Assembly: GCA_009693435.1 (NCBI GenBank)
Contig: SHXF01000047.1
Coordinates: 1-36,919 of the forward strand
Length of the DNA stretch: 36,919 bases
DNA from: Betaproteobacteria bacterium
GTDB lineage: Bacteria > Pseudomonadota > Gammaproteobacteria > Burkholderiales > SG8-39
Direction of reading: 5' to 3'
Positions within the stretch are counted from its first letter, which is position 1, and each line of letters starts with the position of its first letter. Position numbers and translations under genes: made by a program. The notes under the pieces were generated by a model that was not told where the DNA came from, did no database searches, and saw nothing but the letters and a program-made list of their open reading frames with translations. Positions 2,622 to 31,914 of the stretch are shown here, one piece after another.

Positions 2622-3650
2622 ATGACGAACACATTGCTTCCCACCACCGTCGTCGGCAGCTACCCCCAGCCAGACTGGCTTATTCTCCGCGAGACACTCG
2701 GTGCGCGCGTGCCGCGCATCCGGGCGAAGGAAATCTGGCGCGTCGACGAGCCCTTTCTGGAGCAGGCGCAGGACGACGCCACGGTGCTGGCCATACGCGA
2801 CATGGAACGTGCCGGCATCGACGTCATTACGGACGGTGAGATGCGGCGCGAGAGTTATTCCAACCGGTTTGCGACCGCGCTGGAGGGGGTGGATGCCGAC
2901 AATCCCGGCACCACCATCAGCCGCACCGGGGGCAAGAGCGTGGTGCCGAGAATCGTCGGCCCCATCAAGCGCCGTTATCCAGTGGAAGTGCGCGATGTGC
3001 AGTTTCTGCGCGCGAATACCGATCGCATGATCAAGATTACCCTGCCCGGCCCGTTCACCATGGCGCAGCAGGCTCAGGACGAGTTCTACAAGGACGAAGA
3101 AGCTCTCGCCATGGCCTACGCCGCCGCGGTCAACGACGAGGTGCGCGACCTGAAAGCCGCGGGCGCCGACGTGATACAAATCGACGATCCCTGGCTGCAG
3201 GCCCGCCCCGAGCGCGCCGCGCGCTACGGGGTGAAGGCGCTGAACCGCGCGCTGCAGGGCATAGGCGGGCAGACCGTGGTGCACCTGTGCTTCGGCTATG
3301 CCGCGGCGGTGCGCGACAAGCCGAGCGGCTATTCCTTTCTGCCCCAGCTTGCCGATTGCACGGCGACGCAGATTTCGATAGAAGCTGCCCAGCCCAAAAT
3401 CGATCTGGGCGTGCTCAGGGAACTGTCCGCGAAAGCGATCATGCTGGGCGTCATCAGCCTTGCGGAGGCCACCGTGGAAAGCGCGGAGGAAGTCGCGGCT
3501 CGCATCCGGGCCGGACTCAAGCACGTCGCCGCCGAACGCCTGGTGCTCGCGCCTGACTGCGGCATGAAATACCTGCCGCGCGCCGCGGCGTTCGGCAAGC
3601 TGCAGTCGCTGGCGGCGGGTGCGGCGATAGTGCGGCGCGAACTAAGCTGA
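2622..3650 (+). CDS. MetE C-terminal-like (cobalamin-independent methionine synthase family) protein
   Basis: 342 residues matching only the C-terminal catalytic barrel of cobalamin-independent methionine synthase (UROD/MetE-like superfamily). Zinc-ligand equivalents are visible: His221 and Cys223 (VVHLCFGY), Glu254 (ISIEAAQP) and Cys313 (LAPDCGMKYLP). IDDPW at 187-191 corresponds to the substrate-binding IDEPA of MetE. The N-terminal folate-binding half of MetE is absent, so these proteins are likely methyltransferases using another methyl donor, or act in catabolism; the true reaction is unknown. The start at 2622 (MTNTLLPTTVVGSYP) matches the family, although no clear Shine-Dalgarno is seen. 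It is isolated from the operon downstream, which lies on the other strand. Confidence 0.85.
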   Translation: MTNTLLPTTVVGSYPQPDWLILRETLGARVPRIRAKEIWRVDEPFLEQAQDDATVLAIRDMERAGIDVITDGEMRRESYSNRFATALEGVDADNPGTTISRTGGKSVVPRIVGPIKRRYPVEVRDVQFLRANTDRMIKITLPGPFTMAQQAQDEFYKDEEALAMAYAAAVNDEVRDLKAAGADVIQIDDPWLQARPERAARYGVKALNRALQGIGGQTVVHLCFGYAAAVRDKPSGYSFLPQLADCTATQISIEAAQPKIDLGVLRELSAKAIMLGVISLAEATVESAEEVAARIRAGLKHVAAERLVLAPDCGMKYLPRAAAFGKLQSLAAGAAIVRRELS

Positions 3651-3900: not shown

Positions 3901-4881
3901 TCACTGCTGCGCGCTGAGACCCGCCTTCTTGCCCGCGTCTCCCCATTTCCTGAGGTCGGCCTCGATGGCGGCGCTCACCTGCGCCGGCTCCCACCACAAC
4001 ACATCGACACCGATTGATTGCAGGGTGCGCTTGTTGGCTGCATCTTCGTTCAGTTTTTTCAAGGCGTCGCGCACCTTGCCCAGGATTGCCGCGGGCGTGC
4101 CCACCGGCGCAAGAACGGCGAACCAGGTGGTCACGGTGAGTCCTGGCCAGGTATCCGCCAGCGGTTTCAGTTCCGGCGTGAGCGCAGAGGGTCTGGCGCC
4201 GGAGGTTCCGACCGCGATCAGCTTGCCGGCGCGCACCTGCGGCAGGCCTTGCGTGATCGGACCGCAGAACATCGACACTTCTCCGGTTACGGCCGCGAGG
4301 ATGGCCGGGGCCGACCCCTTGTAAGGAATATGCCGCATGTCGACGTTCGCAGCCGACTTGACGATTTCGCCGCACAAGTGCGCGGGTGAGCCGATGCCTG
4401 CCGATCCGAACGTCAGGCTGCCGGGTTTCGCTTTAGCGGCGGTCACCAGGTCAGCCAGTGTTTTGATGCCCAGCGTCGGATTGACCACGAGCATGAGAAG
4501 CGTATCCGCGACGCCGGCGATGGGCACGAGGTCCTTGCGCGGATCGTAGGGAATTTTCAGCACGTTCGGCGCCTGCACCAGCGGCAAGTCGGTGGTGAAC
4601 AGCAGCGTGTAGCCGTTGGGTTCGGCCTTCACCACCGCGTCGGCGCCTATGGTGCCGGTTGCACCGGCGCGATTGTCCACGATGACGGGTTGACGCCAGG
4701 CGTCGGACAATTGCTGCGCGTAGAGCCGCGCCATGATGTCTATGGGTGCGGTCGCGCTCGCCGGCACGATGAAGCGCACCGGGCGGCTTGGATAGCTGTC
4801 TTGCGCGAGTGCCGGACCTGCGGCGATGCCAATCAGCGACAGAACGACCCGCAGCAGTGGCGCGCGCGCCACGGTAGTCAT
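3901..4881 (-). CDS. Bug/TctC-family periplasmic receptor (third gene of operon)
   Basis: 326-residue tripartite-tricarboxylate-type solute receptor. A signal peptide ends at GPALAQ (residues 22-27). It is followed by YPSRPVRFIVP and then VDNRAGATGTIGADAV, the typical first-lobe motifs of Bug proteins, which bind carboxylated solutes in the periplasm. The start ATG lies one base after the sulfatase stop, so translation is coupled. No TctA/TctB membrane genes are nearby, the usual state of orphan Bug proteins in betaproteobacteria. The ligand is unknown; the sulfatase neighbour hints at an organic acid derived from a sulfate ester. The 250 bases between this stop and the preceding gene hold nothing I can identify. 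Confidence 0.92.
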   Translation of the reverse strand: MTTVARAPLLRVVLSLIGIAAGPALAQDSYPSRPVRFIVPASATAPIDIMARLYAQQLSDAWRQPVIVDNRAGATGTIGADAVVKAEPNGYTLLFTTDLPLVQAPNVLKIPYDPRKDLVPIAGVADTLLMLVVNPTLGIKTLADLVTAAKAKPGSLTFGSAGIGSPAHLCGEIVKSAANVDMRHIPYKGSAPAILAAVTGEVSMFCGPITQGLPQVRAGKLIAVGTSGARPSALTPELKPLADTWPGLTVTTWFAVLAPVGTPAAILGKVRDALKKLNEDAANKRTLQSIGVDVLWWEPAQVSAAIEADLRKWGDAGKKAGLSAQQ

Positions 4882-6471: not shown

Positions 6472-7434
6472 TCAGTCAGCCTTTATGTTTGCCTCTTTCG
6501 CAACGGCGGTCCAGCGCGCAATGTCGGTCGCGATGACTTTGGCGAATTCTTCGCCGCTCATCCCGGATGGATCGACACCCAGTCCGGCGAACCGCTCGCG
6601 CACGTCGGGCAATGCGATGATGCGCGCAACTTCGTCGTGCAGCCGCCTGACGATCGCGGAGGGCGTGTTGGCCGGCGCAAACAGGCCGATCCAGACGAGG
6701 AAGGCCATGTCGGGCACGCCCGCCTCGGCCATCGTGGGCACCTCCGGCCAGGAGGGATGGCGCGTTGCCGACGTCACGGCGAGCGCGCGCAGTCTGCCGG
6801 ATTTTATCTGGCCCGCCGACGGGGGCGGATCGGCGAACGCGATGGTGATTTCTCCCGCAATTACGGCATTGACGAACTCGGCGCTGCTCTTGTAGGGGAT
6901 GTGCTGGAAGCGGGTGCCGGTCTTCTGATTCAGCATTTCCGAGGAAAGCTGGAACAGCGCCGAGGTCGAACCGTAGTTGACGCTGGTCGGCCGCGATCTC
7001 GCGAATTCGATCAGTTCCCGGACGGTCCTGGCGGGGGATGTGCCGTTCACAACCAGAATCAGGGGAAACGAACCGACCATGGTAATCGGCGCGAAATCGC
7101 GCAATGTCGAGTAAGGCAGCTTGGCGTAGATCGCCGGATTGCTGGTCATGGGGCCGCTCGGCCCCACCAGTATCGTGTGCCCGTCAGGCGCGGATTTCTG
7201 CACGAACTCAACAGCAATGATGCCCTGCGCACCCGGCTTGTTTTCGACCAGCACCGGCTGGCCGAAGGTTTCGCCGAGCTTGGCTGCGACGACCCGTGCC
7301 ACGATGTCGTTGCCGCCGCCCGCGGCAAACGGAATCACCAGGCGCACCGGTCGCGACGGATAACCAGTTTGTCCAGTCGCAGGATTGCACACGGCGGCGC
7401 ACAACGCCGCGGCCACAGCCATGAATCGCCTCAT
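6472..7434 (-). CDS. Bug/TctC-family periplasmic receptor (first gene of operon)
   Basis: 320-residue tricarboxylate-type solute-binding protein. The open frame extends upstream to 7548, but the start at 7434 (MRRFMAVAAALCAAVC) is chosen because CAAGGAGGAG lies just before it and gives a proper signal peptide ending near ATGQ. YPSRPVRLVIPFAAGGGNDI and VENKPGAQGIIAVEFV are classic Bug motifs. It leads a three-gene minus-strand operon with the sulfatase and a second Bug receptor. Its promoter should lie in the 197-base gap shared with the divergent CmcJ-like gene. The ligand is unknown. Confidence 0.93.
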   Translation of the reverse strand: MRRFMAVAAALCAAVCNPATGQTGYPSRPVRLVIPFAAGGGNDIVARVVAAKLGETFGQPVLVENKPGAQGIIAVEFVQKSAPDGHTILVGPSGPMTSNPAIYAKLPYSTLRDFAPITMVGSFPLILVVNGTSPARTVRELIEFARSRPTSVNYGSTSALFQLSSEMLNQKTGTRFQHIPYKSSAEFVNAVIAGEITIAFADPPPSAGQIKSGRLRALAVTSATRHPSWPEVPTMAEAGVPDMAFLVWIGLFAPANTPSAIVRRLHDEVARIIALPDVRERFAGLGVDPSGMSGEEFAKVIATDIARWTAVAKEANIKAD

Positions 7435-7631
7435 TGCCCGCTCCTCCTTGCCGATCGAAACCAGCGAAGCGGGCAGTGTACGGTTCGCTAGGGGGTTCGG
7501 CAAACAGGGTTCAGCGATGGTGTTGTGCCGCGCCGGCTGAAAGCGCATGTGGTTGCAATTAACCCGCCGCCCGGTCCAATATAGCGGCGGATACCCGCCG
7601 CAGTGCCAGTCCAGCCGAAGGAGAATGCATC

Positions 7632-9864: not shown

Positions 9865-9994
9865 CCGGCGTACCGGCCACAGCTGCCACTGGACGACAGT
9901 CCGCAAAGCTGCCGCGGGGCGGCAAGTATCGATTCGCAACGACAGGCGAAAAATGAATTAGAGTGGTGCTTCTGTCTCGCACAAAGGAGCGGCA

Positions 9995-10483
9995 ATGGCG
10001 GAAAAACTGGATATAGGGGCAAGCTTTCCCAAGCTCACGCTCAATCTCGTCGGCGGCGGCACGCTGGATCTGCCCGACGGACTGGATGCGAAGTACCGGA
10101 TCGTGCTGTTCTATCGCGGACACTGGTGACCGTACTGTCGCCGGCAGTTGGCCGGCTTCCAGAATGCATTGCCCGAGCTTGAATCGCTCGGTGCGAAGGT
10201 CGTAACCGCCAGCGTCGATGCGATCGACAAGGCGGGCGAAGTCGCCGCAGGATTAACGTTCCCGCATGGTTACGGCGTGACCCGCGAGATCGGCAGTCTG
10301 CTCGGCGCCTGGTGGGAGGACAAGCGCAACTTCATGCAGCCTGCGGAATTCATCCTCGATGAAACCGGCAAGGTGCTCGCGTCCAGCTACAGCGCCGGTC
10401 CGCTCGGTCGCATGGACGCGGCTGACGTGGTGAAGCTGATCAAGCTGTACGAGGCACGCAAGGCGGAAGCGAAGAAAGCCTGA
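9995..10483 (+). CDS. Candidate selenoprotein: AhpC/TSA-like redoxin with U-P-Y-C
   Basis: 162-residue thioredoxin-fold (AhpC/TSA-like redoxin) protein read through an in-frame TGA at 10127-10129. The context is YRGHW-(TGA)-PYCRRQLAGF, exactly where this family has a CPYC active site, so residue 45 would be selenocysteine and Cys48 the resolving residue. The frame is intact on both sides. The start ATG 9995 has a strong AAAGGAG seven bases upstream, and the downstream part (EFILDETGKV) is conserved in character up to stop 10483. A 17-nt hairpin 10 nt after the TGA fits a bacterial SECIS. Its role would be thiol or peroxide reduction in the cytoplasm, since no signal peptide is seen. The alternative is a Cys-to-stop mutation; selenocysteine genes elsewhere in the genome would decide. 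Confidence 0.75.
10135..10162 (+). promoter_or_regulatory. Candidate bacterial SECIS hairpin
   Basis: After the in-frame TGA come 10 bases, then GCCGGC (10140-10145), loop AGTTG and GCCGGC (10151-10156), a 17-nt hairpin with a 6-bp GC stem. CTG (10135-10137) and CAG (10160-10162) can extend it by three pairs below an internal loop. The E. coli fdhF minimal SECIS is likewise a roughly 17-nt stem-loop about 11 nt after UGA with G and U in the loop; here the loop also contains GU. It lies inside the coding frame, as required in bacteria. Confidence 0.65.
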
Positions 10484-10502: not shown

Positions 10503-10880
10503 GCCTCCCTCTCCGTTCAGGAGAGGATCGCTTTGCCTCCCCCTCCGGGAGAGGATCGCATTGCCTCCCCCCTCCGGGAGAGGATCGCTTTGCCTCCCCC
10601 CTCCGGGAGAGGATTATTTTGCTTCCCTCTCCCTCCGGGAGAGGATTGTTTTGCTTCCCTCTCCCTCCGAGAGAGGATTGTTTTGCTTCCCTCTCCCTCC
10701 CAGAGAGGATTGTTTTGCTTCCCTCTCCCTCCGGGAGAGGATTGTTTTGCTTCCCTCTCCCTCCGGGAGAGGATTGTTTTGCTTCCCTCTCCCTCCGGGA
10801 GAGGATTGTTTTGCTTCCCTCTCCCTCCGAGAGAGGATTGTTTTGCTTCCCTCTCCCTCCGGGAGAGGGACAGAGGGTGA
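10503..10880. repeat. Tandem hairpin minisatellite, 28-32-bp units
   Basis: About twelve head-to-tail units. Eight nearly identical 32-bp units start at 10621 and every 32 bases up to 10845. They are preceded by four more divergent units of 28-32 bases from 10503. Each contains the palindrome CTCTCCCTCCGGGAGAG, so each can fold into a stem-loop. The last unit runs into GGGACAGAGGGTGAGGGG, a common proteobacterial intergenic sequence. There are no unique spacers, so it is not a CRISPR. The 555 bases between the redoxin and the IS transposase hold only this array, about 80 bases without recognisable features and the IS left end. Confidence 0.93.
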
Positions 10881-10958: not shown

Positions 10959-11996
10959 TGATTAGTGACAAAGCTCAGCAGGCTCATCCTTTGAGCCACT
11001 GAGTGTGGAAAATGGGTTCACCCACACAGGAGGTGAACCATGGCGATGAATGGAGTGCAGTTTCAACCCGGGCTTTCGATGGCCGAATTTATGAGCCGGT
11101 ACGGCAGCGATGAGAATTGCGAGGTGGCGCTGATCGCCTCGCGCTGGCCCAAGGGCTTTGTATGTCCGTCGTGCGCATGCGGTAACAGTAGCTCGTTTCG
11201 ACGTGAGGGCCGGCTGTATTTCCAGTGCACCGAGTGCCGGCACCAGTGCAGCGTGATCAGTGGCACGATCTTCGAGGCGACCAAGCTGCCGCTGTCGCGC
11301 TGGTTCCTGGCGATGCATCTGCTGACCCAGTCCAAGAACAACGTCGCGGCACTCGAACTCATACGCCATCTGGGCGTTTGCTACAAAACTGCCAGGCTCA
11401 TGAAACACAAGCTGATGGAGGTCATGCGAGAGCGCGAGGACACGCGCCAGCTCGAGGGCCGGGTGGAGATCGACGACGCCTACCTCGGGGGCGAGCGCAC
11501 CGGCGGCAAGGTTGGGCGCGGCTCGGAGAACAAGGTCCCGTTTGTCGCCGCGGTGCAGACCACACCCGACGGGCAGCCGCAGTTCGTGTGCCTGCGCCAG
11601 CAGCCGTTCACGAACGAGGCGGTGGCGATCTTCGCAGCCCTCTCGATCGCGCCCTTGGCCACCGTGGTCTCCGACGGACTGTGGTGCTTCGGTGCCGTCC
11701 AGATCGTAGGCGCCGAGCATGAGCGCGTCGTCACCGGTGGCGGCAAGCTCAGCGTCGGGTTGCCTCAGTTCCGCGCAGTCAATACGTTCCTGGGCAACCT
11801 CAAGCGTTCCCTCCGCGGTACGTACCACGCCTTTGACTTTGCCAAATACGCCCATCGCTACCTCGCCGAGGCCCAATATCGATTCAACCGTCGATTCAAT
11901 CTGTGCTCCATCCTGGCTCGCTTGATTCGCGCTGCGTGCCTCACAATTCCAACCCCTGCCTCTGCCATTCGTGCGGCTGAGGTAGGTCGCTAATCA
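10959..11996 (+). mobile_element. IS1595-family insertion sequence
   Basis: About 1,038 bp bounded by imperfect inverted repeats: TGATTAGTGACAAAGCTCAG on the left, and on the right the complement of TGATTAGCGACCTACCTCAG. The transposase fills the interior and its stop codon lies inside the right repeat. Flanking 8-mers (CGACCTCC and AGAAGAAT) do not match, so no target duplication is visible. This suggests an old insertion or later rearrangement. Short hairpins (GGCTCA/TGAGCC and GTGTGG/CCACAC) lie between the left end and the transposase. Confidence 0.85.
11040..11993 (+). CDS. IS1595-family transposase
   Basis: 317 residues, the typical length. An N-terminal zinc ribbon is formed by Cys42/Cys45 (CPSC) and Cys63/Cys66 (CTEC). 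The DDE-type catalytic domain (ISXO2-like) shows EIDDAYLGG (Asp145/146), VVSDGLWCF (Asp212) and RAVNTFLGNLKRSLRGTYHAF, where an Asn replaces the last acidic residue as in several IS1595 subgroups. GGAGGTG precedes the ATG at 11040. The frame is intact, so the element may be active. It catalyses cut or copy of its own IS ends. Confidence 0.95.
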   Translation: MAMNGVQFQPGLSMAEFMSRYGSDENCEVALIASRWPKGFVCPSCACGNSSSFRREGRLYFQCTECRHQCSVISGTIFEATKLPLSRWFLAMHLLTQSKNNVAALELIRHLGVCYKTARLMKHKLMEVMREREDTRQLEGRVEIDDAYLGGERTGGKVGRGSENKVPFVAAVQTTPDGQPQFVCLRQQPFTNEAVAIFAALSIAPLATVVSDGLWCFGAVQIVGAEHERVVTGGGKLSVGLPQFRAVNTFLGNLKRSLRGTYHAFDFAKYAHRYLAEAQYRFNRRFNLCSILARLIRAACLTIPTPASAIRAAEVGR

Positions 11997-18200: not shown

Positions 18201-19337
18201 ATGACCACAAGTCGTTATCTGGAAATTCCCGTGTCGGACGCCCTGAAGCGCAAGATGGTCTTCGTTGGCGGGCCGCGACAGGTCGGCAAGACCACGTTTG
18301 CCCTGGGATTTCTTGGCAAGAACGCGGACGAAACGCATCCTGCGTATCTCAACTGGGATCATCCCGGCGTCCCGCCCAGACTGAGAAACGCGGAGCTTCC
18401 CGCCGGGGAATCATTGCTGTTGCTGGATGAAATACACAAGTACGCCCGTTGGAGGAACCTGCTCAAGGGAATCTACGACACGGAGAAATCCCGGCGCAAG
18501 ATCATCGTCACGGGTTCCGCGCGGCTCGACTACTACAGGAAGGGTGGCGATTCCCTTGCCGGCCGCTATCGTTACTTTCGTCTGCATCCTTTTTCCCTCC
18601 GGGAACTGAACCGGAAGCCCACGCGCGCCGACCTGGAGGCGCTGCTGAAATTCGGCGGGTTTCCGGAGCCGCTATTCGCGCAGAACGAGGCGGAGCATCG
18701 CATCTGGCAGCGGGACCGGATTTCACGCGTGGTTCGCGAGGATCTGCGCGATCTGGAACACGTACGCGAAATCAGCCTGATCGAGCACCTGACCGACCTG
18801 CTGCCCTCGAAAGTGGGTTCGCCGCTTTCGGTAAAAAGCCTGTGCGAGGATCTGCAGATCGACCACAAGACCGCGGAGCGCTGGCTGCAGATACTGGAAA
18901 ACATGTACGTCTGCTTCCGCATCCTGCCCTTCGGCGCGCCGCGCATCCGCGCCGTGAAGAAGGCAAGGAAGCTCTATCTCTGGGACTGGTCGGGTGTGGC
19001 GGGCGCGGGGCCGAGATTCGAGAACATGGTCGCTTCACAGCTCCTCAAGTTCTGCCATTGGCAGGAGGATACGCAGGGTCATGCCATGGAGCTTCGCTAT
19101 CTGCGAGACACCGACAAGCGCGAAATCGATTTTGTCGTGCTCAAAAACAGGAAGCCCGTGTTCGCCGTCGAATGCAAATTGGGAGAACGAGCCATCGGCC
19201 CCGCGCTCCATTATTTTGCCGGGAGAACGCCGATTCCGCGCTTCTACCAGACGCATCTTGGCGAGAGGCACTTTGAAACCGGCAAGGTGACGGTATTGCC
19301 GTTCATCAAGCTGTGCCAGGAACTCGAGCTTCCCTAG
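18201..19337 (+). CDS. AAA-family ATPase with DUF4143 C-terminal domain
   Basis: 378 residues. Walker A is GGPRQVGKTT (Lys30) and Walker B is LLLLDEIHK (Asp76, Glu77), with sensor VTGSARLD. The AAA_14 domain is followed by a DUF4143 domain whose Asp310, Glu324 and Lys326 (EIDFVV, then VECK) match the D-ExK pattern of PD-(D/E)xK nuclease folds. The cellular role of this widespread family is unknown; defence or genome maintenance has been suggested by context. It stands alone, and its start codon abuts a large palindrome. A second member is encoded at 22462-23703. Confidence 0.9.
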   Translation: MTTSRYLEIPVSDALKRKMVFVGGPRQVGKTTFALGFLGKNADETHPAYLNWDHPGVPPRLRNAELPAGESLLLLDEIHKYARWRNLLKGIYDTEKSRRKIIVTGSARLDYYRKGGDSLAGRYRYFRLHPFSLRELNRKPTRADLEALLKFGGFPEPLFAQNEAEHRIWQRDRISRVVREDLRDLEHVREISLIEHLTDLLPSKVGSPLSVKSLCEDLQIDHKTAERWLQILENMYVCFRILPFGAPRIRAVKKARKLYLWDWSGVAGAGPRFENMVASQLLKFCHWQEDTQGHAMELRYLRDTDKREIDFVVLKNRKPVFAVECKLGERAIGPALHYFAGRTPIPRFYQTHLGERHFETGKVTVLPFIKLCQELELP

Positions 19338-22461: not shown

Positions 22462-23703
22462 CTATTGTGTCCACAGCTCTGAAAGCGGCACAGCCAGGAT
22501 GCGCCGGTCCGCGGTCGGGAGCGTGCTCGTGCCCGCATACAGGATCATGCCACCCTGAAAATCCTTGCCGCATTGCTCGGCAAGGCGGCGCAGCCCATTG
22601 CCGTCGGCCGGCGTCACTGTCGCAGCGGTCTTCACTTCCACACCCCACGTGCGCCGGCCGCGCGTGATAACGAGGTCCACCTCCACCTGGTCCTTGTCGC
22701 GGTAGTGCCAGAAGCGCAGGTCCGGATCGGTCCACCCGGCCTGGGCGATGATCTGCTGCACCACGAACGATTCGGTCAGATGGCCGTAACGCTCGCGTCG
22801 CGCTGTCCAGTCTCCGGCTTCGAGCCCCGCGAGCGTTGCCGCAAGGCCGCTGTCAATCAAGTGGATCTTGGGTGCCTTGATGAGGCGTCTTGCTTCGTTC
22901 CGGTGCCAGGCCGGCAACCGCCGCAGCAGGAACAGTCGCTCAAGAATATTCAGGTACTGATCGGCGGTCTCCCGGCGCATGCCGAGTTGCGCACCCAGGA
23001 TGGAAAGATTGAGCAGGCTGGCAGAGCGCAGGGCAACGATTTCAACGAGCCGGCCGAGTTCGGCGGCGTCGCGCACGCGGGCGATATCCGCGACGTCCCG
23101 CTCCAGCAAAGTGCGCAGATATTGCCGGTGCCATTGGCGCGCCCGATCGGGCGAGCGCAGTTGCGCCGGCGGATAGCCCCCGCGCAGGAGTCGCGCCTGC
23201 AACTGGCCGTGCGGCGCCGCCTCGATGCCACGAATGCGGGGCGTAACGCGCCCGGTCAGGAAGGCGTGAAGCAGCGCGCCGGGCTGGCGCTCCTTTTCGG
23301 ACTCCGTCAGTGGATGCAAGTGGACGAACTCAATGCGGCCTGCGAGCGAATCGCCGGTCTTCGGCAACAGCAAAAGATCAGCGGAGCCCGTGAGGAGAAA
23401 GCGGCCTGGCCGCCGGTCGCTATCCACTGCCGCCTTGATCGCCAAGAGCAGGCCCGGCGCGCGCTGTATCTCGTCGAGTGTCACGCGGCCGGGAAGTGCC
23501 GCGATGAAGCCGACCGGATCCTCGCGGGCGGTGCGGAGCATCGGCTCCTCGTCCAGCGTGACGTAGGCGCGCTCGGGTGTGAGTGTGCGGACCAGCGTGC
23601 TCTTGCCCGACTGCCGCGGCCCCAGCAACGCGACCACCGGGGTGTCGCTCAGCGCCAGCTTCAGCGCGCGCCGGACGTTGCGGGGGTAGGCGGATTCGGC
23701 CAT
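22462..23703 (-). CDS. AAA-family ATPase with DUF4143 domain (second copy)
   Basis: 413 residues. Walker A is LLGPRQSGKST (Lys34), Walker B VTLDEIQRA (Asp77, Glu78) and sensor LLTGSADLLLLP. The C-terminal DUF4143 domain has a D-ExK pattern (QVEVDLVI, then WGVEVKTA), like the ATPase at 18201, but overall sequence similarity between the two is modest. The function of the family is uncertain. The start ATG 23703 lies just downstream, in gene orientation, of a 23-bp-period repeat array, which may contain its promoter region. Confidence 0.9.
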   Translation of the reverse strand: MAESAYPRNVRRALKLALSDTPVVALLGPRQSGKSTLVRTLTPERAYVTLDEEPMLRTAREDPVGFIAALPGRVTLDEIQRAPGLLLAIKAAVDSDRRPGRFLLTGSADLLLLPKTGDSLAGRIEFVHLHPLTESEKERQPGALLHAFLTGRVTPRIRGIEAAPHGQLQARLLRGGYPPAQLRSPDRARQWHRQYLRTLLERDVADIARVRDAAELGRLVEIVALRSASLLNLSILGAQLGMRRETADQYLNILERLFLLRRLPAWHRNEARRLIKAPKIHLIDSGLAATLAGLEAGDWTARRERYGHLTESFVVQQIIAQAGWTDPDLRFWHYRDKDQVEVDLVITRGRRTWGVEVKTAATVTPADGNGLRRLAEQCGKDFQGGMILYAGTSTLPTADRRILAVPLSELWTQ

Positions 23704-23873: not shown

Positions 23874-24881
23874 TCACTCGATCACCCGGTCGGCCCGTAT
23901 CAGCACCGACTGCGGGATGGTCAGACCGAGCGCTTTCGCCGTCTTGAGGTTGATCACCATCTCGAACTGGGTCGGCTGTTCGAAGGGCAACTCGCCGGGC
24001 GGCCTGCCTTTGAGAATGCGATCGACGAAGTTCGCTGCGTTGCGGAACATGCCGGTCGCGCTGAATCCGTAGACCGCGAGCCCGCCGTCGGCGACGAATG
24101 AATCGCTGGCGTAGATAGCCGGAATGCGATGGCGCGCCGCGAGATCCACGATCAACTTCGGCTGCGAGGAAAGCAGCGGCTGGTTCGCGACGATCAGCAT
24201 CTGGGCACGCTGTGCCGCCGCCCTGGCAAACGCATCCGGCACTTCCTTCAGGCTGGTCACGTACAGGATATCGACACTGAGGCCGAGCTTTGCCGCGGCC
24301 GCCTGAAACAGTTTTGCGCTCTGCTCCCGGGTCGGACATCCCGAATAGCTCAGCACACTGACGCGCTTGGCGCCGGGAACGATCTCGCGCAGGATCTCCA
24401 TGGTCTTCTGGTCGGAGACTTCCTGAAACAGGACATTGCCGGTGACATTGCCGCCGGGCCGCGCGAGACTGGCGGCAAACCCCTGCGACACGGGATCCCC
24501 CATCATCGCGGCCACCACAGGAATGGTGAGAGTCACGTCTCTGGTTGCCTTCACCATTTCCGAACCGTGGACGACGATGATCCGGGGACTGCTACGGGCA
24601 ATCTCGTCCAGCAGCGCGGGCAGTCGTTCGAAGCGGCCCGCCACCTCGTGAATTTCCAGGATCAGATTGCGGCCTTCGATATAGCCCAGTTCGCGCAAGC
24701 GGCTGCGGAATGCACCCACCCGATCCGCCTGGACTTGCACTGTTCCGGCGATCACCAGCGCCACGCGAGGGGCCGCAGCTTGCGCCTGGGCCTGCGCGAC
24801 GCGCGCATTGGTCGGCGCAAACGCCGCCAACGCCACGCCGCCGGCGGCCATCAGAAATTGTCTGCGTTGGATTGGCTTCAT
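23874..24881 (-). CDS. ABC-type substrate-binding protein (PF04392 type), orphan
   Basis: 335 residues. The N-terminus MKPIQRRQFLMAAGGVALAA resembles a Tat-type signal (RRQFL), unlike the Sec-like signals of the other paralogues. The mature part has LRELGYIEGRNLILEI, ASLARPGGNVTGN, FVDRILKGRPPGELPFEQPT and the terminal KTAKALGLTIPQSVLIRADR. No permease or ATPase is adjacent. It is more distant from the plus-strand paralogues (for example VVHGSEMVKATRD in place of the AAG-type segment), which suggests an older split. The ligand is unknown. Confidence 0.9.
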   Translation of the reverse strand: MKPIQRRQFLMAAGGVALAAFAPTNARVAQAQAQAAAPRVALVIAGTVQVQADRVGAFRSRLRELGYIEGRNLILEIHEVAGRFERLPALLDEIARSSPRIIVVHGSEMVKATRDVTLTIPVVAAMMGDPVSQGFAASLARPGGNVTGNVLFQEVSDQKTMEILREIVPGAKRVSVLSYSGCPTREQSAKLFQAAAAKLGLSVDILYVTSLKEVPDAFARAAAQRAQMLIVANQPLLSSQPKLIVDLAARHRIPAIYASDSFVADGGLAVYGFSATGMFRNAANFVDRILKGRPPGELPFEQPTQFEMVINLKTAKALGLTIPQSVLIRADRVIE

Positions 24882-24914
24882 GAATTCCGTGGCAACGTTT
24901 GCACTATCAAGCAG

Positions 24915-25000
24915 GTTGGGCTGTGCGCAGCGATGCCCAACATTCTACGGTGCATGACCGCCAAGTTGGGGTTCGCTGCGCTCAACGCCAACCTGCGGCT
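24915..25000. repeat. REP-like hairpins (second locus)
   Basis: GTTGGGC (24915-24921) pairs with GCCCAAC (24935-24941), followed by GTTGGGGTTCGCTGCGCTCA and CCAACCTGC. The motifs match those at 2387-2460. The gap between the binding-protein gene and the RES toxin gene contains only this element. Confidence 0.7.
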
Positions 25001-25061
25001 GGCAGTGCTAAAAGGCAGGGCCAATGTGTCATGTGCTCTTGGCAGATGATCGTGGCAATTA

Positions 25062-25523
25062 TCAATCCCGTCTCAAGCGCAGATCGGTGACGAACGCCTC
25101 CGGTTTGCCAATTGCTATTCTGGAGAATGCAGGGTGCAGCGGATTCAGCAGGTAGTTGGTTTCAGTGGGTATGACGAAGCTGGGCACGGCAAGAACCGGG
25201 CTGGACCTGAGCCTGGCCCAGTCGGTGCCGATCGCCTGCAGTCGCTCGCGCGCCACGGGCTTTCGCCAATCGGCAGGCAGTTGACCTGGCGTGACCCGCG
25301 CGATTTTCAGATTCCCCGGCAGCGTGGCGGAGATCATCACGTAGCGCGCGCGCAATGGTTCGTCCTGCACCAGCATTTCCAGCATGGCCAGCGACTGGCT
25401 GCCGGCGGTGTACACCACAGGCGTGCCTTCGCGGTTCCAGCGCCCCGCGTAGAGGCGGGCACCCTCGCCCGAGAACGCGGATTGCGCGAACCGGGCGGTA
25501 AGCAGCCGCCAGACGACGAGCAC
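25062..25523 (-). CDS. RES-domain toxin (NAD-degrading family)
   Basis: 153 residues of the RES family, toxins that phosphorolyse or hydrolyse NAD. WRLLTARFAQSAFSGEGARL and AGRWNREGTPVVYTAGS give the conserved Arg and Tyr region, and AMLEMLV carries the conserved Glu. The start is GTG 25523, whose G is shared with the antitoxin's TAG stop (TAGTG), a one-base overlap. It forms a complete type II module with the upstream Xre/DUF2384 antitoxin. Confidence 0.92.
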   Translation of the reverse strand: MLVVWRLLTARFAQSAFSGEGARLYAGRWNREGTPVVYTAGSQSLAMLEMLVQDEPLRARYVMISATLPGNLKIARVTPGQLPADWRKPVARERLQAIGTDWARLRSSPVLAVPSFVIPTETNYLLNPLHPAFSRIAIGKPEAFVTDLRLRRD

Positions 25524-25978
25524 TAGCCGAACACGCCGTGCTCGATCCGGCCGAGCGTATCCATTACGCCCTCCGCGCCGATGTCGGTGTCCAGAAGGGA
25601 AAACGGGGTTGCACCCGACAGTGCGGCATTCGGAGACTTCAACCAGTCCCGGGCGGTGTCCAGATCTTCAAATGTTTCAGTGGCGCGCGCGACGACACGG
25701 GCAAGCCGCACCAGTTTGGCTGACTCCTCGCTCGTGAGCACGCCCGCCTTCTTGCGCCGGGCCAAGGTGCGCTCGGGAATGCCCAGCGCCGCCGCCAGTT
25801 CGGATTGTGTGACGCGCAGCGTCCTGGCCAGGGAATCCACCGCCCCCGATGAAAGCCCGTGGCGAATCACCAGGACCCAATCCAGCGCGGTGCGTTGTTT
25901 CGCCTGCAAGACCTTTCTGCCGCCAAGCAGGGCTTCAAGCGACAAGGCGGGCCTGGAAATCGTGGCGGTGGTAACCAT
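25523..25978 (-). CDS. Xre/MbcA/ParS-type antitoxin (DUF2384)
   Basis: 151 residues. A helix-turn-helix region (TLRVTQSELAAALGIPERTL, residues about 53-72) is followed by the DUF2384 toxin-binding domain with VARATETFEDLDTARDWLKS. It neutralises the RES toxin encoded immediately downstream and should repress the pair by binding the sites at 25997-26030. ATG 25978 gives the family's usual length. Confidence 0.92.
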   Translation of the reverse strand: MVTTATISRPALSLEALLGGRKVLQAKQRTALDWVLVIRHGLSSGAVDSLARTLRVTQSELAAALGIPERTLARRKKAGVLTSEESAKLVRLARVVARATETFEDLDTARDWLKSPNAALSGATPFSLLDTDIGAEGVMDTLGRIEHGVFG

Positions 25979-25996
25979 GAGGGGACTCCATTCATT

Positions 25997-26030
25997 GCCA
26001 TATGGCGGTAGTCATGTGCAATTATGGCGG
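25997..26030. promoter_or_regulatory. Operator-like repeats before Xre/RES pair
   Basis: TATGGCGG occurs at 26001-26008 and 26023-26030, 22 bases (two helical turns) apart. The first copy lies in the palindrome GCCATATGGC (25997-26006). The position 20-50 bases upstream of the antitoxin start fits an autorepressor site. Confidence 0.5.
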
Positions 26031-26070
26031 ATTTAGCTGTAGGACACCTCCATAAATTAAAATTTTGTCG

Positions 26071-26088
26071 TTCCCGCGTAGGCGGGAA
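26071..26088. repeat. REP-type hairpin TTCCCGC-GTAG-GCGGGAA
   Basis: A 7-bp GC-rich stem with a four-base loop, inside GTCGTTCCCGCGTAGGCGGG, a sequence type that is widely dispersed in proteobacterial intergenic DNA. It lies in the 250-base gap between the divergent antitoxin and binding-protein genes. Confidence 0.75.
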
Positions 26089-26229
26089 CCCAGGTGCGCG
26101 CAGGATGGAGATTGCGTCGATAGAATGGCGATTCTAGGCAGCGCTTCAAAGAGTCGTCCCAGGCTGAGCGTGCCCGGGCCGGATACCGCCGGCGCTTGCG
26201 CCAGGCCACGATGATCCATAGGGAAACAA

Positions 26230-27216
26230 ATGAACAGACGCAACGCGATTCAGGCACTGCTCGCCGCACTGGCTTCCTCGTCCGGCGTTTTACCGCTTCC
26301 CGCCTACGGCCAGGCGCGCGTGCGGCGCATAGTGTCGGTTACCGGCAATGCCGAACGAACGGTCGCGGAGCCGTTCAAGGGTTTTCTCCAGGAATTGAAA
26401 ATCCTCGGATACCAGGAAGAACGCGACTTCACCCTCTCCATCGGCTACGGCGAATTTTCCCGCGAACGCACCGCCCGGCTCGCGGCCGAGGCGATCGCCA
26501 CCAAGCCCGATCTCATCTTTGCGCAACACGGTGCCGTCCACGCCTTCGCGGCATTAACCAGGACGATACCGATCGTCATTATCTACAGCGGCGATCTGGT
26601 GGAAGCGGGTCTGGCGAAGAGTCTGGCCCGCCCGGGCGGCAACATTACCGGGATGCAACTCCTGCATTTCGATCTGGTCGGCAAGCGCATCGAAGTCCTC
26701 AAGGAACTTGCGCCGCGCATCAAGCGATTGGCGGTGTTGGCGATGCCCAATCATGCTGGCATCCAGAGAGAGCGCGATTTATCGGTTGCGGCTGCCCAAC
26801 AGCTCGGCCTGAGCGTCGCCTACTACCCCGTGAATAACCCGCAGGAAGTCGATGCGGCGCTGGTGGCAGCGCGCTCGGCAGGCGTGCATGGGCTGGTGAT
26901 TTTTCCCGACCCCATCACGATGGAGGGTCGCGAGCGCATCGCGGCCTTCGCGCTCAAGCACAAAATGCCGGTGGTCGGTGGATGGGACAATTATCCGCTT
27001 GCCGGCGCGCTTGCCAGCTATGGTCCGAACCTGGGCGAGGCCTGGCGCCGGACCGCGAGCCACGTGGACCGGATCTTGAAAGGCGCCGACCCGGCAAGCT
27101 TGCCGGTGGAATTGCCGACCATCGTCGAACTGGTCGTCAACTTGAAGACGGCGCGCGCGCTGGGCCTGAAAGTTCCGCAGTCACTGCTGCTGCGCGCCGA
27201 CCGCGTGATCGATTGA
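26230..27216 (+). CDS. ABC-type substrate-binding protein (PF04392 type), orphan
   Basis: 328 residues. The signal peptide ends near LPLPAYGQA. Family features are LKILGYQEERDFTLSIGYGE, KSLARPGGNITGM, VDRILKGADPASLPVELPT and KTARALGLKVPQSLLLRADR. It is the most divergent of the plus-strand copies (no QQQGKVWR at the mature N-terminus). Its TGA stop overlaps the TTG start of the next binding-protein gene, so the two are co-translated. Two binding proteins without a permease in one operon is unusual. Confidence 0.9.
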   Translation: MNRRNAIQALLAALASSSGVLPLPAYGQARVRRIVSVTGNAERTVAEPFKGFLQELKILGYQEERDFTLSIGYGEFSRERTARLAAEAIATKPDLIFAQHGAVHAFAALTRTIPIVIIYSGDLVEAGLAKSLARPGGNITGMQLLHFDLVGKRIEVLKELAPRIKRLAVLAMPNHAGIQRERDLSVAAAQQLGLSVAYYPVNNPQEVDAALVAARSAGVHGLVIFPDPITMEGRERIAAFALKHKMPVVGGWDNYPLAGALASYGPNLGEAWRRTASHVDRILKGADPASLPVELPTIVELVVNLKTARALGLKVPQSLLLRADRVID

Positions 27217-28205
27217 ACACGCGCCGAAAACTCATTCTCTCGCTTGGCGCGGCCGCGCTCGCGGCGCCATTCGCGGCTTTTGCCCAGCAGCAGGGCAAGG
27301 TCTGGCGTGTCGGATTCCTTTCACTGGGCCCGCGCCCCGCATCCTTCGAATCCGACTACCTCGGGGCGTTCCCGCTGGGGATGCGCGATCTGGGCTATGT
27401 CGAGGGCAGGAACCTCGCGATCGAGTGGCGCTTCGCCGATGCGAGGAGCGAGCGGCTTCCGGCTCTTGCGGCTGAACTGGTCGAATTGAAAGTGGACGCC
27501 ATTGTGGCGGCGGGCACGCAGGCCGTCAGCGCGGCGCGCAAAGCGAGCGCCACGATTCCCATCGTCATGGCGACCGTCGGCGATCCGGTGGGCAGCGGTT
27601 TGATCGCCAGCCTCGCGCGCCCCGGCGGCAATGTCACCGGGACGTCGCTCATGGCGGTAGACATCATCACCAAATATCTGGAACTGCTGCGCGGCATGGC
27701 GCCCAAGGTGTCGCGTGTCGCTGCCATGATGAACACAGACAATCCGCCGCATGCAACGGCCTTGAAGAATCTTCAGGACGCGGCCGGGAAGACCGGCGTA
27801 ACGATCCTGCCCTACGATGTCAGGACTCCCGCGGCGATCGAACCGGCCTTTGCGCAGATGAAGCGCGCCGGCGCCGGGGCGGTATTCATTTTTCTGCACC
27901 CGATATTCACGGCGCAAGTGCGCCAGATCGGCGAACTGGCCCTGAAGCACCGGTTGCCCTCGATATCGGGGATTAGGGAGTTCGCCGAGGCGGGTGGCCT
28001 GGTGACGTACGGTTCGAGTTTCTCCGAAAGCACCCGGCGCACGGCGGCTTATGTGGACAAGATCCTGAAGGGCGCGAAACCGTCCGACCTGCCGGTGGAG
28101 CAACCCGTGAAATTCGAAATGATCATCAATGGCAGGACGGCGAAGGCGCTGGGCCTCACCATCCCGCAAGCGCTGCTGATCAGCGCCGACAGGGTGATCG
28201 AATGA
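27213..28205 (+). CDS. ABC-type substrate-binding protein (PF04392 type), coupled second copy
   Basis: 330 residues. The start is TTG 27213, overlapping the preceding stop (TTGA). This start gives a proper signal peptide, MNTRRKLILSLGAAALAAPF, ending at FAQ. The longer frame to 26982 is only read-through of the upstream gene in another frame. Mature features are QQQGKVWRVGFLSLG, MRDLGYVEGRNLAIEWRFAD, ASLARPGGNVTGTS and KALGLTIPQALLISADR. It belongs to the same subgroup as the copies at 28998, 30126 and 31915. The stop is 5 bases from the end of the convergent PIN gene. The ligand is unknown. Confidence 0.9.
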   Translation: MNTRRKLILSLGAAALAAPFAAFAQQQGKVWRVGFLSLGPRPASFESDYLGAFPLGMRDLGYVEGRNLAIEWRFADARSERLPALAAELVELKVDAIVAAGTQAVSAARKASATIPIVMATVGDPVGSGLIASLARPGGNVTGTSLMAVDIITKYLELLRGMAPKVSRVAAMMNTDNPPHATALKNLQDAAGKTGVTILPYDVRTPAAIEPAFAQMKRAGAGAVFIFLHPIFTAQVRQIGELALKHRLPSISGIREFAEAGGLVTYGSSFSESTRRTAAYVDKILKGAKPSDLPVEQPVKFEMIINGRTAKALGLTIPQALLISADRVIE

Positions 28206-28210
28206 ATACG

Positions 28211-28615
28211 CTACAAAACCAGGTTGAGCGTCTTGCCGTTCGGCAGGCGATAGACGGAGAAATCCTTCCGGTCTATGGTCAGAATGTCGATTACGCCGGT
28301 CTGTTGCGCGACCCAGATCAGCGAGGCGTCGGCCAGGTCCATGGGCAAATCGCGATACTTGTCTTTCCAGTCGGCGAGGGAGGCAAGCGCCGATTCGTGC
28401 ATTTCCACCAGACTGATTCCGCCGGCGTCGGCCCAGCGCAAGAAGCCCAGCTGCGTCTTCTCAGGAAGAAAATAACACGCTTCGGCCAGCACTGGCCAGG
28501 TGGTCAGCATGCGGCCATTGAAGCGCCGCAGATAGGCGGTAACGCGGCGATGATGCTTGTCGGAGCGGTCCGCCAGCGCGATCAGCGGCCCGGCGTCAAC
28601 GAGAATGCTTGCCAC
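28211..28615 (-). CDS. PIN-domain toxin (VapC-like)
   Basis: 134 residues. PIN-domain acidic residues are Asp7 (ILVDAGPL), Glu45 (VLAEACYF), Asp93/Asp96 (MDLADASLI) and Asp115/Asp118 (TIDRKDF). VapC-type enzymes are Mg-dependent RNases that cut tRNA or rRNA. It starts inside the end of the RHH antitoxin gene (20-base overlap). It is convergent with a binding-protein gene. Confidence 0.92.
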   Translation of the reverse strand: MASILVDAGPLIALADRSDKHHRRVTAYLRRFNGRMLTTWPVLAEACYFLPEKTQLGFLRWADAGGISLVEMHESALASLADWKDKYRDLPMDLADASLIWVAQQTGVIDILTIDRKDFSVYRLPNGKTLNLVL

Positions 28616-28856
28616 GCAGCTTTTCTGCGAGATACAGCTTGCGATTCTCCGCCAGGTCGCCCTTGCCGCTCGAAAAGCCGCCCATCACGCCGAATTCGCG
28701 CGCGAGTTGATAGGGTGTCTTGCCGCCGCTGGGAACGGAGGACAAATGGTCGCTCAGCAGTTCGGTGATCACATGGGTCTTGGTGACCCTGCGTGATTTG
28801 CAGTAGCTGTCGAGTTGCTGGCGCAGGTGCGGCGAGAGGCGGACAGTGAGGGTCAT
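28596..28856 (-). CDS. Ribbon-helix-helix antitoxin for the PIN toxin
   Basis: 86 residues. The N-terminus TLTVRLSPHLRQQLDSYCKS, then RRVTKTHVITELLSDHL, forms a CopG/Arc-type ribbon-helix-helix. The C-terminal part (GVMGGFSSGKGDLAENR) is typical of antitoxins that wrap around PIN toxins. It overlaps its toxin gene by 20 bases, and a palindrome sits at its promoter. Start ATG 28856. Confidence 0.88.
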   Translation of the reverse strand: MTLTVRLSPHLRQQLDSYCKSRRVTKTHVITELLSDHLSSVPSGGKTPYQLAREFGVMGGFSSGKGDLAENRKLYLAEKLRGKHSR

Positions 28857-28880
28857 GTGTACCTGGAAACGAAAAATGTT

Positions 28881-28895
28881 GTATTACGATAATAC
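28881..28895. promoter_or_regulatory. Operator-like palindrome before RHH/PIN pair
   Basis: GTATTA-CGA-TAATAC, 25 bases upstream of the antitoxin start codon (minus strand), in an AT-rich segment that also resembles a -10 region. Likely the binding site for the ribbon-helix-helix antitoxin. Confidence 0.65.
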
Positions 28896-28997
28896 GCCAT
28901 CGTGGCGGACAGCGGAAGAAGGGCGGGTTGCGGCAGAAAATGCGCGTAATGGCGATGCCGAGCGCCCATCGTCACAGCACGCCAGGGAGGCACGCGC

Positions 28998-29264
28998 ATG
29001 AATCTGCGACGCAAACTGCTTGCTGCCCTGGCTGCAGGTGCGCTCGCGGCGCCGTTCGCCTCCTTCGCACAGCAGCAGGGCAAGGTCTGGCGTGTCGGAT
29101 TCCTGCTGGCCAGTCCGCGTCCGGCCGTCATCGACTCGGACTTCCTCGGCGCATTCGTGCATGGCATGCGCGGCCTCGGCTACATCGAGGGGAAGAATCT
29201 CGCGATCGAATGGCGCTTTGCCGAGGGCGAAGTTGCGCGCCTGCCGCGTCTCGCTGCCGAGTGA
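28998..29264 (+). pseudogene. Truncated ABC substrate-binding protein gene
   Basis: The first 88 codons of a PF04392-type binding protein (MNLRRKLLAALAAGALAA, QQQGKVWRVGFLLASPRP, GLGYIEGKNLAIEWRFAE), ending in TGA at 29262. From the QQQ codons to the end it differs from the intact gene at 30126 at only about six of 190 bases. Aligned to that copy, one base is missing just before the stop, and similarity fades about 12 bases later. It is therefore a recently duplicated, decayed 5' fragment. GGGAGG lies upstream of the ATG, so a short secreted peptide could still be made. Confidence 0.9.
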
Positions 29265-29333
29265 ACGAATTGCGCATGTGAAGCCGGCAGTTGCTACACT
29301 TCCCGCATCGGATTGATCGGTCGCCATCACATC

Positions 29334-29588
29334 ATGCATACCACCGCAGCATTGGAATTTCCCGAGGAAGTGCTGGCCAGCACGCAATTAAGCGCAGAGC
29401 AGTTAGCCGAGCGCGCCAAACTCGAAACGGCGCTGGCGCTTTACCGCGAGGGACGGCTTTCGTCCGCGCTGGCTGCTAAATGGGTCGGGGAACCGCGCGT
29501 GAGTTTCCTGATCCGCGCCTCCGCGGCGGGCATACCCTTGCTTGACGATTCACTCGACGATTTCGAGCGCGAACGCAACTTGTTGTGA
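29334..29588 (+). CDS. UPF0175-family antitoxin
   Basis: 84 residues. AALEFPEEVLASTQLSAEQL, then ALALYREGRLSSALAAKWVG, is the UPF0175 pattern of small helix-turn-helix antitoxins that accompany DUF3368/PIN-like toxins. The frame is open to 29313, but ATG 29334 fits the family. The toxin start overlaps its stop by four bases (GTGA). It sits immediately after the broken binding-protein gene, so its insertion may mark the duplication break. Confidence 0.85.
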   Translation: MHTTAALEFPEEVLASTQLSAEQLAERAKLETALALYREGRLSSALAAKWVGEPRVSFLIRASAAGIPLLDDSLDDFERERNLL

Positions 29589-30058
29589 TTTTCAGTAACA
29601 CCACGCCGTTTATCGCCTTGAGCGCAATCGACCGCCTGGAGTTGTTACCCGCGCTTTTCGGCCGGATTCATGTGGTCGAGCCGGTGGTGCGAGAATGCGC
29701 AGCGGGCGGCGCGATCAAGGTGCCAGCGCTGGATTCACTGCCCTGGGTGACGGTGCTGCCGGTCACCGATGGCGATCCGGAACCGATGCTGATGCAACTC
29801 GATAACGGAGAAAAGTGGACTTTGCATACTGCGCGACAAGCCAAGGCGAAATTGCTGTTGATCGACGAGCGCATCGGTCGCAACGTCGCCGAACGCATGG
29901 GCCTGAAGGTGACCGGCACGCTGGGCATCTTGCTCAAGGCACATCAGCAAGATTTGATCGCCTCTTTCTCCAGTACGGCGGAGGACTTGCGTGTTCGGGG
30001 AATATTCTTTCATCCGCGATTGATTGCGCGGCTGGCGGAGTCAGTCGGCGAGGGTTAG
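29585..30058 (+). CDS. DUF3368 PIN-like toxin
   Basis: 157 residues. The PIN-like start is IFSNTTPFIALSAIDRLELL, with Asn instead of the usual first Asp, as is normal in DUF3368. Further conserved parts are VVEPVVRECAAGG and LLIDERIGRNVAERMGLKVTGTLGIL. Probably an RNA-cleaving toxin paired with the UPF0175 protein. Starts with GTG 29585 overlapping the antitoxin stop. The next gene, an intact binding protein, begins 67 bases later. Confidence 0.88.
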   Translation: MIFSNTTPFIALSAIDRLELLPALFGRIHVVEPVVRECAAGGAIKVPALDSLPWVTVLPVTDGDPEPMLMQLDNGEKWTLHTARQAKAKLLLIDERIGRNVAERMGLKVTGTLGILLKAHQQDLIASFSSTAEDLRVRGIFFHPRLIARLAESVGEG

Positions 30059-30125
30059 GTTTCCACGATACGGCGGTTCCAGCCGCCATCGAGCATAACC
30101 GCCACGCACGGAATCTTGAGGAGAG

Positions 30126-31118
30126 ATGAACAATCGCCGGAAACTTCTTGCCGCGTTAGGCGCAAGCGCGCTCACGGCGCCGTTCGCCGCCTTCGCCCAG
30201 CAGCAGGGCAAGGTCTGGCGTGTCGGATTCCTGCTGGCCAGTCCGCGTCCCGCCGTCATCGACGCGGACTTCCTCGGCGCATTCGTGCATGGCATGCGCG
30301 GCCTCGGCTACATCGAGGGGAAGAATCTCGCGATCGAATGGCGCTTTGCCGAAGGCGAAGTCGCGCGCCTGCCGGGCCTCGCTGCCGAACTGATCGAACT
30401 GAAAGCGGACGTCCTCGTGGCGGCAGGGCCGCAAGCGATGGGTGTGGCGCAGAAAGCGACCAGCTCGATTCCCATCGTCATGGCATTTCTGAGCGAACCG
30501 GTGGGAGCCGGCTTCGTCAAGAGCCTTGCGCGTCCCGGCGGCAACATCACCGGGCCTGCGATGATGGGCCCCGACGTAGTCACCAAACAGCTGGAGATGC
30601 TGCTCAGCTTCGCTCCCAGGCTCTCCCGCATGGCCGTCATGCTGAATCCCGCCAGCGCGAGCCATGTTATTGGTCTCAAGAGCCTTCAGAGCGCAGCACA
30701 AAAAATCCGCGTAAAAATCCTGCCCGCGGAAGTGACCACGGCGCAGGAAATCGAATCGGCATTCGCCATGATGAAGCGTGAGCAGGCCGGTGCTGTCATC
30801 GTGTTCGCCGATTCGATGTGGAACAGGCGGACGCGCCAGATCGCGGAACTTGCGCTGAAAAACCGGCTGTTGTCGGCAGGCGGGTTTCAGGACTATGTGG
30901 AAGCCGGCTGTCTGGTCAGCTACAGCTCGAGCTTCGCCGACAACGCCCGGCGCGCGGCAACGTATGTGGACAAGATATTCAAGGGGGCGAAGCCCGCCGA
31001 CCTGCCGGTCGAACAACCGACGACATTCGAGTTGTTCATCAACCGCAAGACCGCGAAGGCGCTCGGTCTCACCATCCCGCAATCGCTGCTGATCAGCGCC
31101 GAAAAGGTTATCGATTGA
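30126..31118 (+). CDS. ABC-type substrate-binding protein (PF04392 type), intact twin of the fragment
   Basis: 330 residues. Signal peptide MNNRRKLLAALGASALTAPF ends at FAQ. QQQGKVWRVGFLLASPRP, LGYIEGKNLAIEWRFAEGEV, KSLARPGGNITGPAM, YVDKIFKGAKPADLPVEQPT and KTAKALGLTIPQSLLISAEK follow the family. GAGGAGAG precedes ATG 30126. Its first quarter is almost identical to the fragment at 28998. It has no permease or ATPase partner. The ligand is unknown. Confidence 0.92.
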   Translation: MNNRRKLLAALGASALTAPFAAFAQQQGKVWRVGFLLASPRPAVIDADFLGAFVHGMRGLGYIEGKNLAIEWRFAEGEVARLPGLAAELIELKADVLVAAGPQAMGVAQKATSSIPIVMAFLSEPVGAGFVKSLARPGGNITGPAMMGPDVVTKQLEMLLSFAPRLSRMAVMLNPASASHVIGLKSLQSAAQKIRVKILPAEVTTAQEIESAFAMMKREQAGAVIVFADSMWNRRTRQIAELALKNRLLSAGGFQDYVEAGCLVSYSSSFADNARRAATYVDKIFKGAKPADLPVEQPTTFELFINRKTAKALGLTIPQSLLISAEKVID

Positions 31119-31147
31119 ATCATGAAATCGTGCCTGCCGACGCCGGA

Positions 31148-31840: not shown

Positions 31841-31846
31841 GCTTTT

Positions 31847-31869
31847 ATCCGGATTCCGGAAAGCCGGAT
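31847..31869. promoter_or_regulatory. Operator-like palindromes before AbrB/PIN pair
   Basis: TCCGGA-T-TCCGGA (31848-31860) is nested with ATCCGG (31847) and CCGGAT (31864-31869). It lies seven bases upstream of the antitoxin start, also inside the intergenic space of the divergent binding-protein gene, so one protein could affect both promoters. Confidence 0.6.
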
Positions 31870-31914
31870 TATCCCACATCCGGCAGGGACGGACGTGGCT
31901 GCGACGGGCATCGC

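Follow-up and report, generated by a model that had tools for sequence, protein, structure and literature searches.

We found that a gene in a 36,919-nucleotide stretch of Betaproteobacteria bacterium DNA (contig SHXF01000047.1 of assembly GCA_009693435.1; the whole stretch is hereafter called the window) very probably encodes a selenoprotein, a peroxiredoxin-like (Prx-like) redoxin with selenocysteine (Sec, U) at an in-frame TGA, because the TGA is present in all of the 80 genomic relatives that were fetched, a covarying stem-loop of the bacterial Sec insertion sequence (SECIS) type follows it, homologues carry Cys in its place and most of the genomes holding relatives encode Sec machinery. 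The preliminary description of this DNA had preferred such a UxxC selenoprotein to a nonsense mutant, and this evidence bears it out. The elements of the gene are as follows.

9995..10483, + strand: gene of the very probable UxxC Prx-like (AhpC/TSA, PF00578) selenoprotein, 162 residues plus stop
9983..9989, + strand: AAAGGAG, Shine-Dalgarno-like, 5 nt upstream of the ATG, read from the sequence
10127..10129, + strand: in-frame TGA, the very probable Sec codon (U45) of a UPYC motif
10136..10138, + strand: TGT of Cys48, the sole Cys of the protein and the presumed resolving partner of U45
10140..10156, + strand: bacterial-type SECIS upper stem-loop with 6 bp (10140-10145 with 10151-10156) and the loop AGUUG at 10146-10150
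10148..10150, + strand: TTG of Leu52 in the SECIS loop, a false start taken by gene callers

The frame runs from the ATG at 9995-9997 to the TGA at 10481-10483 and has one internal stop, the TGA at codon 45, in the context LFYRGHW-U-PYC. The preliminary description was correct in its coordinates, in noting a Shine-Dalgarno-like signal and in placing the TGA at the first Cys of a CPYC-type site, and it had also foreseen that a routine gene finder would call only the 3' half: for this frame, the list of open reading frames (ORFs) contains nothing but 10148..10483, a product of 111 aa starting at TTG. With U read as C, the Pfam family AhpC-TSA matched residues 7-128 (E 1e-18, 67.9 bits against a 26-bit cut-off), so that both halves belong to one domain and the downstream half is intact, as had been claimed, and PF08534 (Redoxin) matched at 39.6 bits against 26.6. 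The AhpC-TSA score above the gathering threshold together with the UPYC motif places the window redoxin in an already known class, the UxxC Prx-like selenoproteins. The thioredoxin fold first proposed could be narrowed to its peroxiredoxin branch, since the structure model predicts with confidence a peroxiredoxin fold, in which helix 46-64 would start next to U45. No NCBIfam model reached its cut-off for the window protein, including the SelL-related redox protein model NF040769 (23.7 bits, below the 120-bit curated cut-off).

Genomic relatives were collected by scanning one genome per species, which gave 159 confirmed relatives, and the best 80 of the 159 were fetched; the scan patterns sit downstream of codon 45, so that the relatives were not selected for TGA. 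The comparison of homologues at codon 45 that had been proposed earlier gave TGA in 80/80 genomic relatives and, in a protein search with 166 matches of which 120 were listed and underlie the counts below, Cys in 19/120. TGA was also present in all 13 full redoxin copies among 98 genomes of one family (that of genome G033). The redoxin therefore shows two features by which bacterial selenoproteins are recognized, namely one conserved in-frame TGA with both flanks conserved and Sec/Cys pairs among homologues. One Cys besides U45 was found in 76 of the 80 relatives, three of the 80 being unreadable to full length. Among the listed proteins, 92 begin after position 45, 91 of them at residue 52 (Leu, TTG 10148), and position 45 in the others is Cys (19), Trp (6), Arg (1), Gln (1) or gapped (1). 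The eight proteins with Trp, Gln or Arg at the Sec position (P0005, P0006, P0007, P0009, P0010, P0014, P0015 and P0024), several of which lie near Sec forms, may reflect translation with another code or true replacement. Two loci (L004:13215 and L008:13237) hold, some 5 kb away from the first redoxin, a second and distant one that likewise has a TGA (HW-U-PYCGRQ) and shares the SECIS stem.

The Cys forms, which include the two closest full-length listed relatives, are what would be expected if the window held an ordinary Cys gene whose TGC was read as TGA through a sequencing or assembly error. We consider such an error extremely unlikely, given the TGA in 80/80 fetched relatives, the presence of a SECIS that distant Cys paralogues lack and the listed protein P0004, whose C-terminal half is 96% identical, which lies on another (833-base) contig and which starts after the same point.

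For the SECIS, 42 nt from the TGA were aligned without gaps across the 80 relatives (L098 was left out). Alignment positions 14-19 pair with 25-30 and the first four loop bases are AGUU in 81/81 genes, window included; RNAalifold recovered the helix unprompted. All six pairs are present in 73 of the 81 TGA genes and five in the remaining eight, and L098 (36% identical, with TGA) likewise retains all six. Over 73 distinct rows, 98.4% of the cells are paired, compared with a mean of 87.7 in shuffled alignments and 6.8-54.6 in slid versions; because the shuffles do not preserve the relatedness of the rows, the slid control matters too. Both-side changes occur in four of the six pairs (shuffled mean 2.0, matched by 2 of 500 shuffles) and in 44 cells (7.6 in shuffles, with 0/500 reaching 44). 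At 21 Cys-paralogue sites, all in distant proteins of 21-37% identity rather than in close Cys forms, only one to four SECIS pairs were found. A covariance model built without the window located the window element (10127-10168) at 57.7 bits, a score to which primary sequence, itself also shaped by coding, contributes much, and its next match scored 14.4. According to the available part of PMC13188914, a bacterial SECIS has a loop of 3-9 nt, an upper stem of 4-16 bp, a G within loop positions 1-2, a spacing of 16-37 nt from the UGA and a minimum free energy of -7.5 kcal/mol or lower; the window element lies within all of these limits, with a 5-nt loop in which G is second and followed by U, 6 bp, 16 nt spacing and -15.4 kcal/mol for the 42-nt fold.

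The Leu52 codon in the loop is TTR in 80/80 relatives, whereas a fixed stretch of the genes has 842 CTN and 223 TTR codons. This also bears on the possibility that the true protein is the short one starting at TTG 10148, with the upstream half not forming one chain with it. That product is the one listed by the ORF finder, and 91 of the 92 truncated database relatives start there; yet the retained TTR lies within the SECIS loop, the upstream half is likewise conserved, and in the structure model the short form would lack the UPYC site as well as the strands lying within residues 14-39, so that we give this explanation almost no credence.

Sec machinery was searched in 50 genomes of the 80 relatives, chosen over taxa and identity, a sample that does not include the host of the window. 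Above the respective cut-offs, SelA was found in 46, SelB in 45 and SelD in 43 of them. As the 47-bit tRNA-Sec cut-off was passed by 45 of the 50 genomes and also by 5 of 14 control genomes, a line of 64 bits was used, at or above which tRNA-Sec was found in 43/50. One genome (G036) had tRNA-Sec as its sole Sec component. In the order of G018 (300 genomes), 10 genomes held a TGA relative at E of 1.6e-26 or less, and SelB was found in 7/10 carriers versus 77/290 others (one-sided Fisher p 0.006); in the family of G033 (98 genomes), it was found in 9/12 gene carriers versus 34/86 others (p 0.022), where the two samples overlap and the p values ignore phylogeny. The SelB-negative carriers in this family had only SelD (G003) or SelA and SelD (G058 and G106).

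Linkage was surveyed in flanks of up to 8 kb around the 80 loci, with counts that are lower bounds as 4 of the 10 sel query proteins were poor, of wrong strand or frame (L087, L119, L120 and L126). SelA, SelB, SelD and tRNA-Sec were found together at 4 loci, SelA, SelB and tRNA-Sec at 7, SelA and SelB at 1, SelB and tRNA-Sec at 1 and SelD only at 3, with nothing at 64; selB was therefore near 13/80 loci, with selA near 12 and tRNA-Sec near 12 of those. As a separate observation, the SelD match of nine genomes (G015, G018, G022, G024, G032, G041, G047, G050 and G249) contained a single in-frame TGA, so that SelD is probably itself a selenoprotein there.

Several observations weigh against the selenoprotein assignment. 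Further pair types, one of five covariation measures, were not above the shuffles (10 vs 8.7, reached by 86/500), and the Cys control for the SECIS consists of distant paralogues. The folding energy of the window stem-loop was unexceptional (z of -0.62, -0.63, -1.81 and +0.22), the best fold of the longest tested piece skipped the SECIS stem, and when 42 nt of each gene were folded singly, 58 of the 81 genes formed the full stem, 7 formed four or five of its pairs and 16 adopted a different structure. Neither an Rfam search at gathering thresholds nor ARAGORN gave an RNA or tRNA match in the window. A second stop lies close to the TGA site in 2/80 relatives (L033 and L060). In one of the 50 genomes (G048) no Sec component out of the four was found, and in two (G001 and G003) SelD only; these three and G036 may be incomplete assemblies. 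No assay of this subfamily was found in the available portions of the selenoprotein literature. The closest full-length proteins among the matches listed, P0002 and P0003 (67-68% identical), carry Cys. The preliminary description had named Cys in close relatives combined with relaxed selection on this copy as counter-evidence; the former did turn up, but the retention of the SECIS and of both halves in the window speaks against the latter.

A recently inactivated gene, whose host had lost the Sec machinery and whose TGA now acts as a true stop in a copy undergoing decay, would account for the fact that tblastn found no sel gene in the 36.9-kb window, which is a further point against a functional selenoprotein. 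Such decay has a precedent in G033, where a partial SelB match, a weak tRNA-Sec match and a broken extra redoxin copy (C13:169097-169536) stand in a row (C13:167473-169536) that resembles a selB-selC-redoxin cassette in decay. Both halves of the window redoxin match the family over their whole length, the SECIS keeps 6/6 pairs and the 96% identical half in P0004 exists on another contig, and we therefore regard inactivation as improbable and retain the selenoprotein as the far likelier reading.

We infer from this evidence that Sec is inserted in this host, and the same holds for the catalytic cycle, substrate, reductant and location of the protein. The redoxin would be a peroxiredoxin-fold selenoenzyme, probably cytosolic. 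SelB and Sec-tRNA-Sec would bind the stem-loop at 10140-10156, leading to Sec insertion at UGA 10127-10129 and to the sequence GHWUPYC. The U45 selenolate, at the N-terminus of the model helix 46-64, could then attack a peroxide or disulfide substrate, after which Cys48, the only other such residue, would join U45 in a selenenylsulfide (U45-C48), for which thioredoxin or glutathione may be the reductant. The chances that these catalytic details are right appear to us roughly even.

In a tree of 108 proteins, the Cys forms P0002/P0003 and P0008 were nested among Sec forms, for which Sec-to-Cys reversion is the simplest reading, and two other Cys groups were placed outside the Sec forms. The Sec label has to change 10 times on the tree, with at least 7 changes forced by well-supported branches and the eight Trp/Gln/Arg rows counted; the position of the window redoxin itself was poorly supported. 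These proteins may constitute a coherent Prx-like subfamily with the signature GHWUPYCRRQL in Alpha-, Beta- and Gammaproteobacteria, with Sec as the predominant and perhaps ancestral state, repeated reversion to Cys, occasional placement of the gene in a selA-selB-selC-redoxin cassette and poor visibility in databases because the SECIS itself supplies a false TTG start, a combined picture to which we assign an even chance.

The window carried the following other features around the redoxin gene.

10536-10868: approximately 10.6 copies of the 32-bp unit CCTCTCCCTCCGGGAGAGGATTGTTTTGCTTC, with a short inverted repeat in each, between the redoxin and the IS1595-type transposase
11040-11993: IS1595 (ISXO2-like) transposase gene, downstream of the redoxin
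3901-4881 and 6472-7548: two TctC genes
18201-19337 and 22462-23703: a pair of AAA_14/DUF4143 ATPase genes, one on each strand
23874-32913: five ABC_sub_bind (PF04392) genes in one stretch
29313-29588: gene of a UPF0175 protein, directly followed by a small unassigned ORF at 29585-30058

Multiple ABC_sub_bind and TctC genes are typical of betaproteobacteria, and the UPF0175 protein is presumably antitoxin-like. The Meth_synt_2 protein (2622-3647) had four organism-named relatives among the 120 listed, all Burkholderiales bacterium with 78-79% identity, and a match in 19 of 26 carrier genomes, G033 being the closest (77%). Judged by this one gene, the host is probably an uncultured bacterium of the Burkholderiales. 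A plasmid search gave no match. As for a conserved neighbor that would hint at the substrate, no neighbor cluster occurred in more than 15 of the 81 loci apart from the redoxin's own frame (73) and an antisense frame overlapping it (44), the clusters not being annotated one by one. Scanning the window for TGAs that lie in frame within a UxxC or CxxU motif and have open flanks yielded ten sites including that of the redoxin; eight of the other nine were rejected by eye as non-coding frames, and TGA 29262-29264, where the SECIS model has no match, was left as an ordinary stop. The ORF that it ends (28998-29264) is coding-like and recalls ABC_sub_bind by eye, with no Pfam match, and is possibly a gene fragment.

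The analysis exposes a systematic annotation error, in which 92/120 listed relatives are without the active-site half and 91 start at a Leu codon internal to the SECIS. Given that no NCBIfam model reaches its cut-off, a dedicated subfamily model could recover many genes. The results suggest that uncultured Burkholderiales- and Rhodospirillales-like bacteria use selenium-dependent redox chemistry, and this chemistry would offer a clean test of the role of Sec at the Thr position of the peroxiredoxin fold.

The peroxidatic motif of classical peroxiredoxins is PxxxTxxC, from which the window protein departs with U45 at the Thr position and R41 at the Pro position. A profile alignment with 6q5v pairs C48 with the Cys of FTPVC in that chain, and U45 with the Thr that precedes this Cys by three residues; the redoxin differs from the Sec peroxiredoxin (PF00578, TxxU), Bcp/PrxQ and AhpC in that Sec occupies the Thr position. 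It resembles the ResA-type thiol-disulfide oxidoreductases, whose CxxC aligns with the UxxC (3c71, E 1e-9), but no leader was seen by eye in the redoxin and the best E-values go to peroxiredoxins. UxxC Prx-like selenoproteins have been on record since 2005. A literature text search with the motif letters gave chance letter strings among the matches listed, and we do not claim that the subfamily is absent from print; the redoxin terms were not found in the available part of the Sec-prediction paper PMC12013277. According to the accessible parts of the respective sources, 21 of 22 sequences of a 'Prx-like protein' in the Sargasso Sea set were UXXC (PMC1088965), 'Prx-like 1' in the Global Ocean Sampling (GOS) set comprised 225 Sec and 2,740 Cys forms (PMC2398784), and Table 1 of PMC13188914 includes both a Prx-like thiol:disulfide oxidoreductase (PF00578 or COG0450, UxxC) and a Redoxin family protein (PF08534, UxxC). 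By description, the last resembles the window protein in its PF08534 match and UxxC motif, and it is likewise by description only that GOS Prx-like 1 and the published reference WP_010940744.1 are likened to the GHWUPYCRRQL subfamily. GOS Prx-like 1 differs in being a mixture of Sec and Cys forms, whereas 80/80 fetched relatives here have TGA. As far as these partial descriptions go, the Prx-like selenoprotein sets and the window redoxin are alike in the Prx-like domain, the UxxC motif, the bacterial SECIS directly after the UGA and the existence of Cys homologues.
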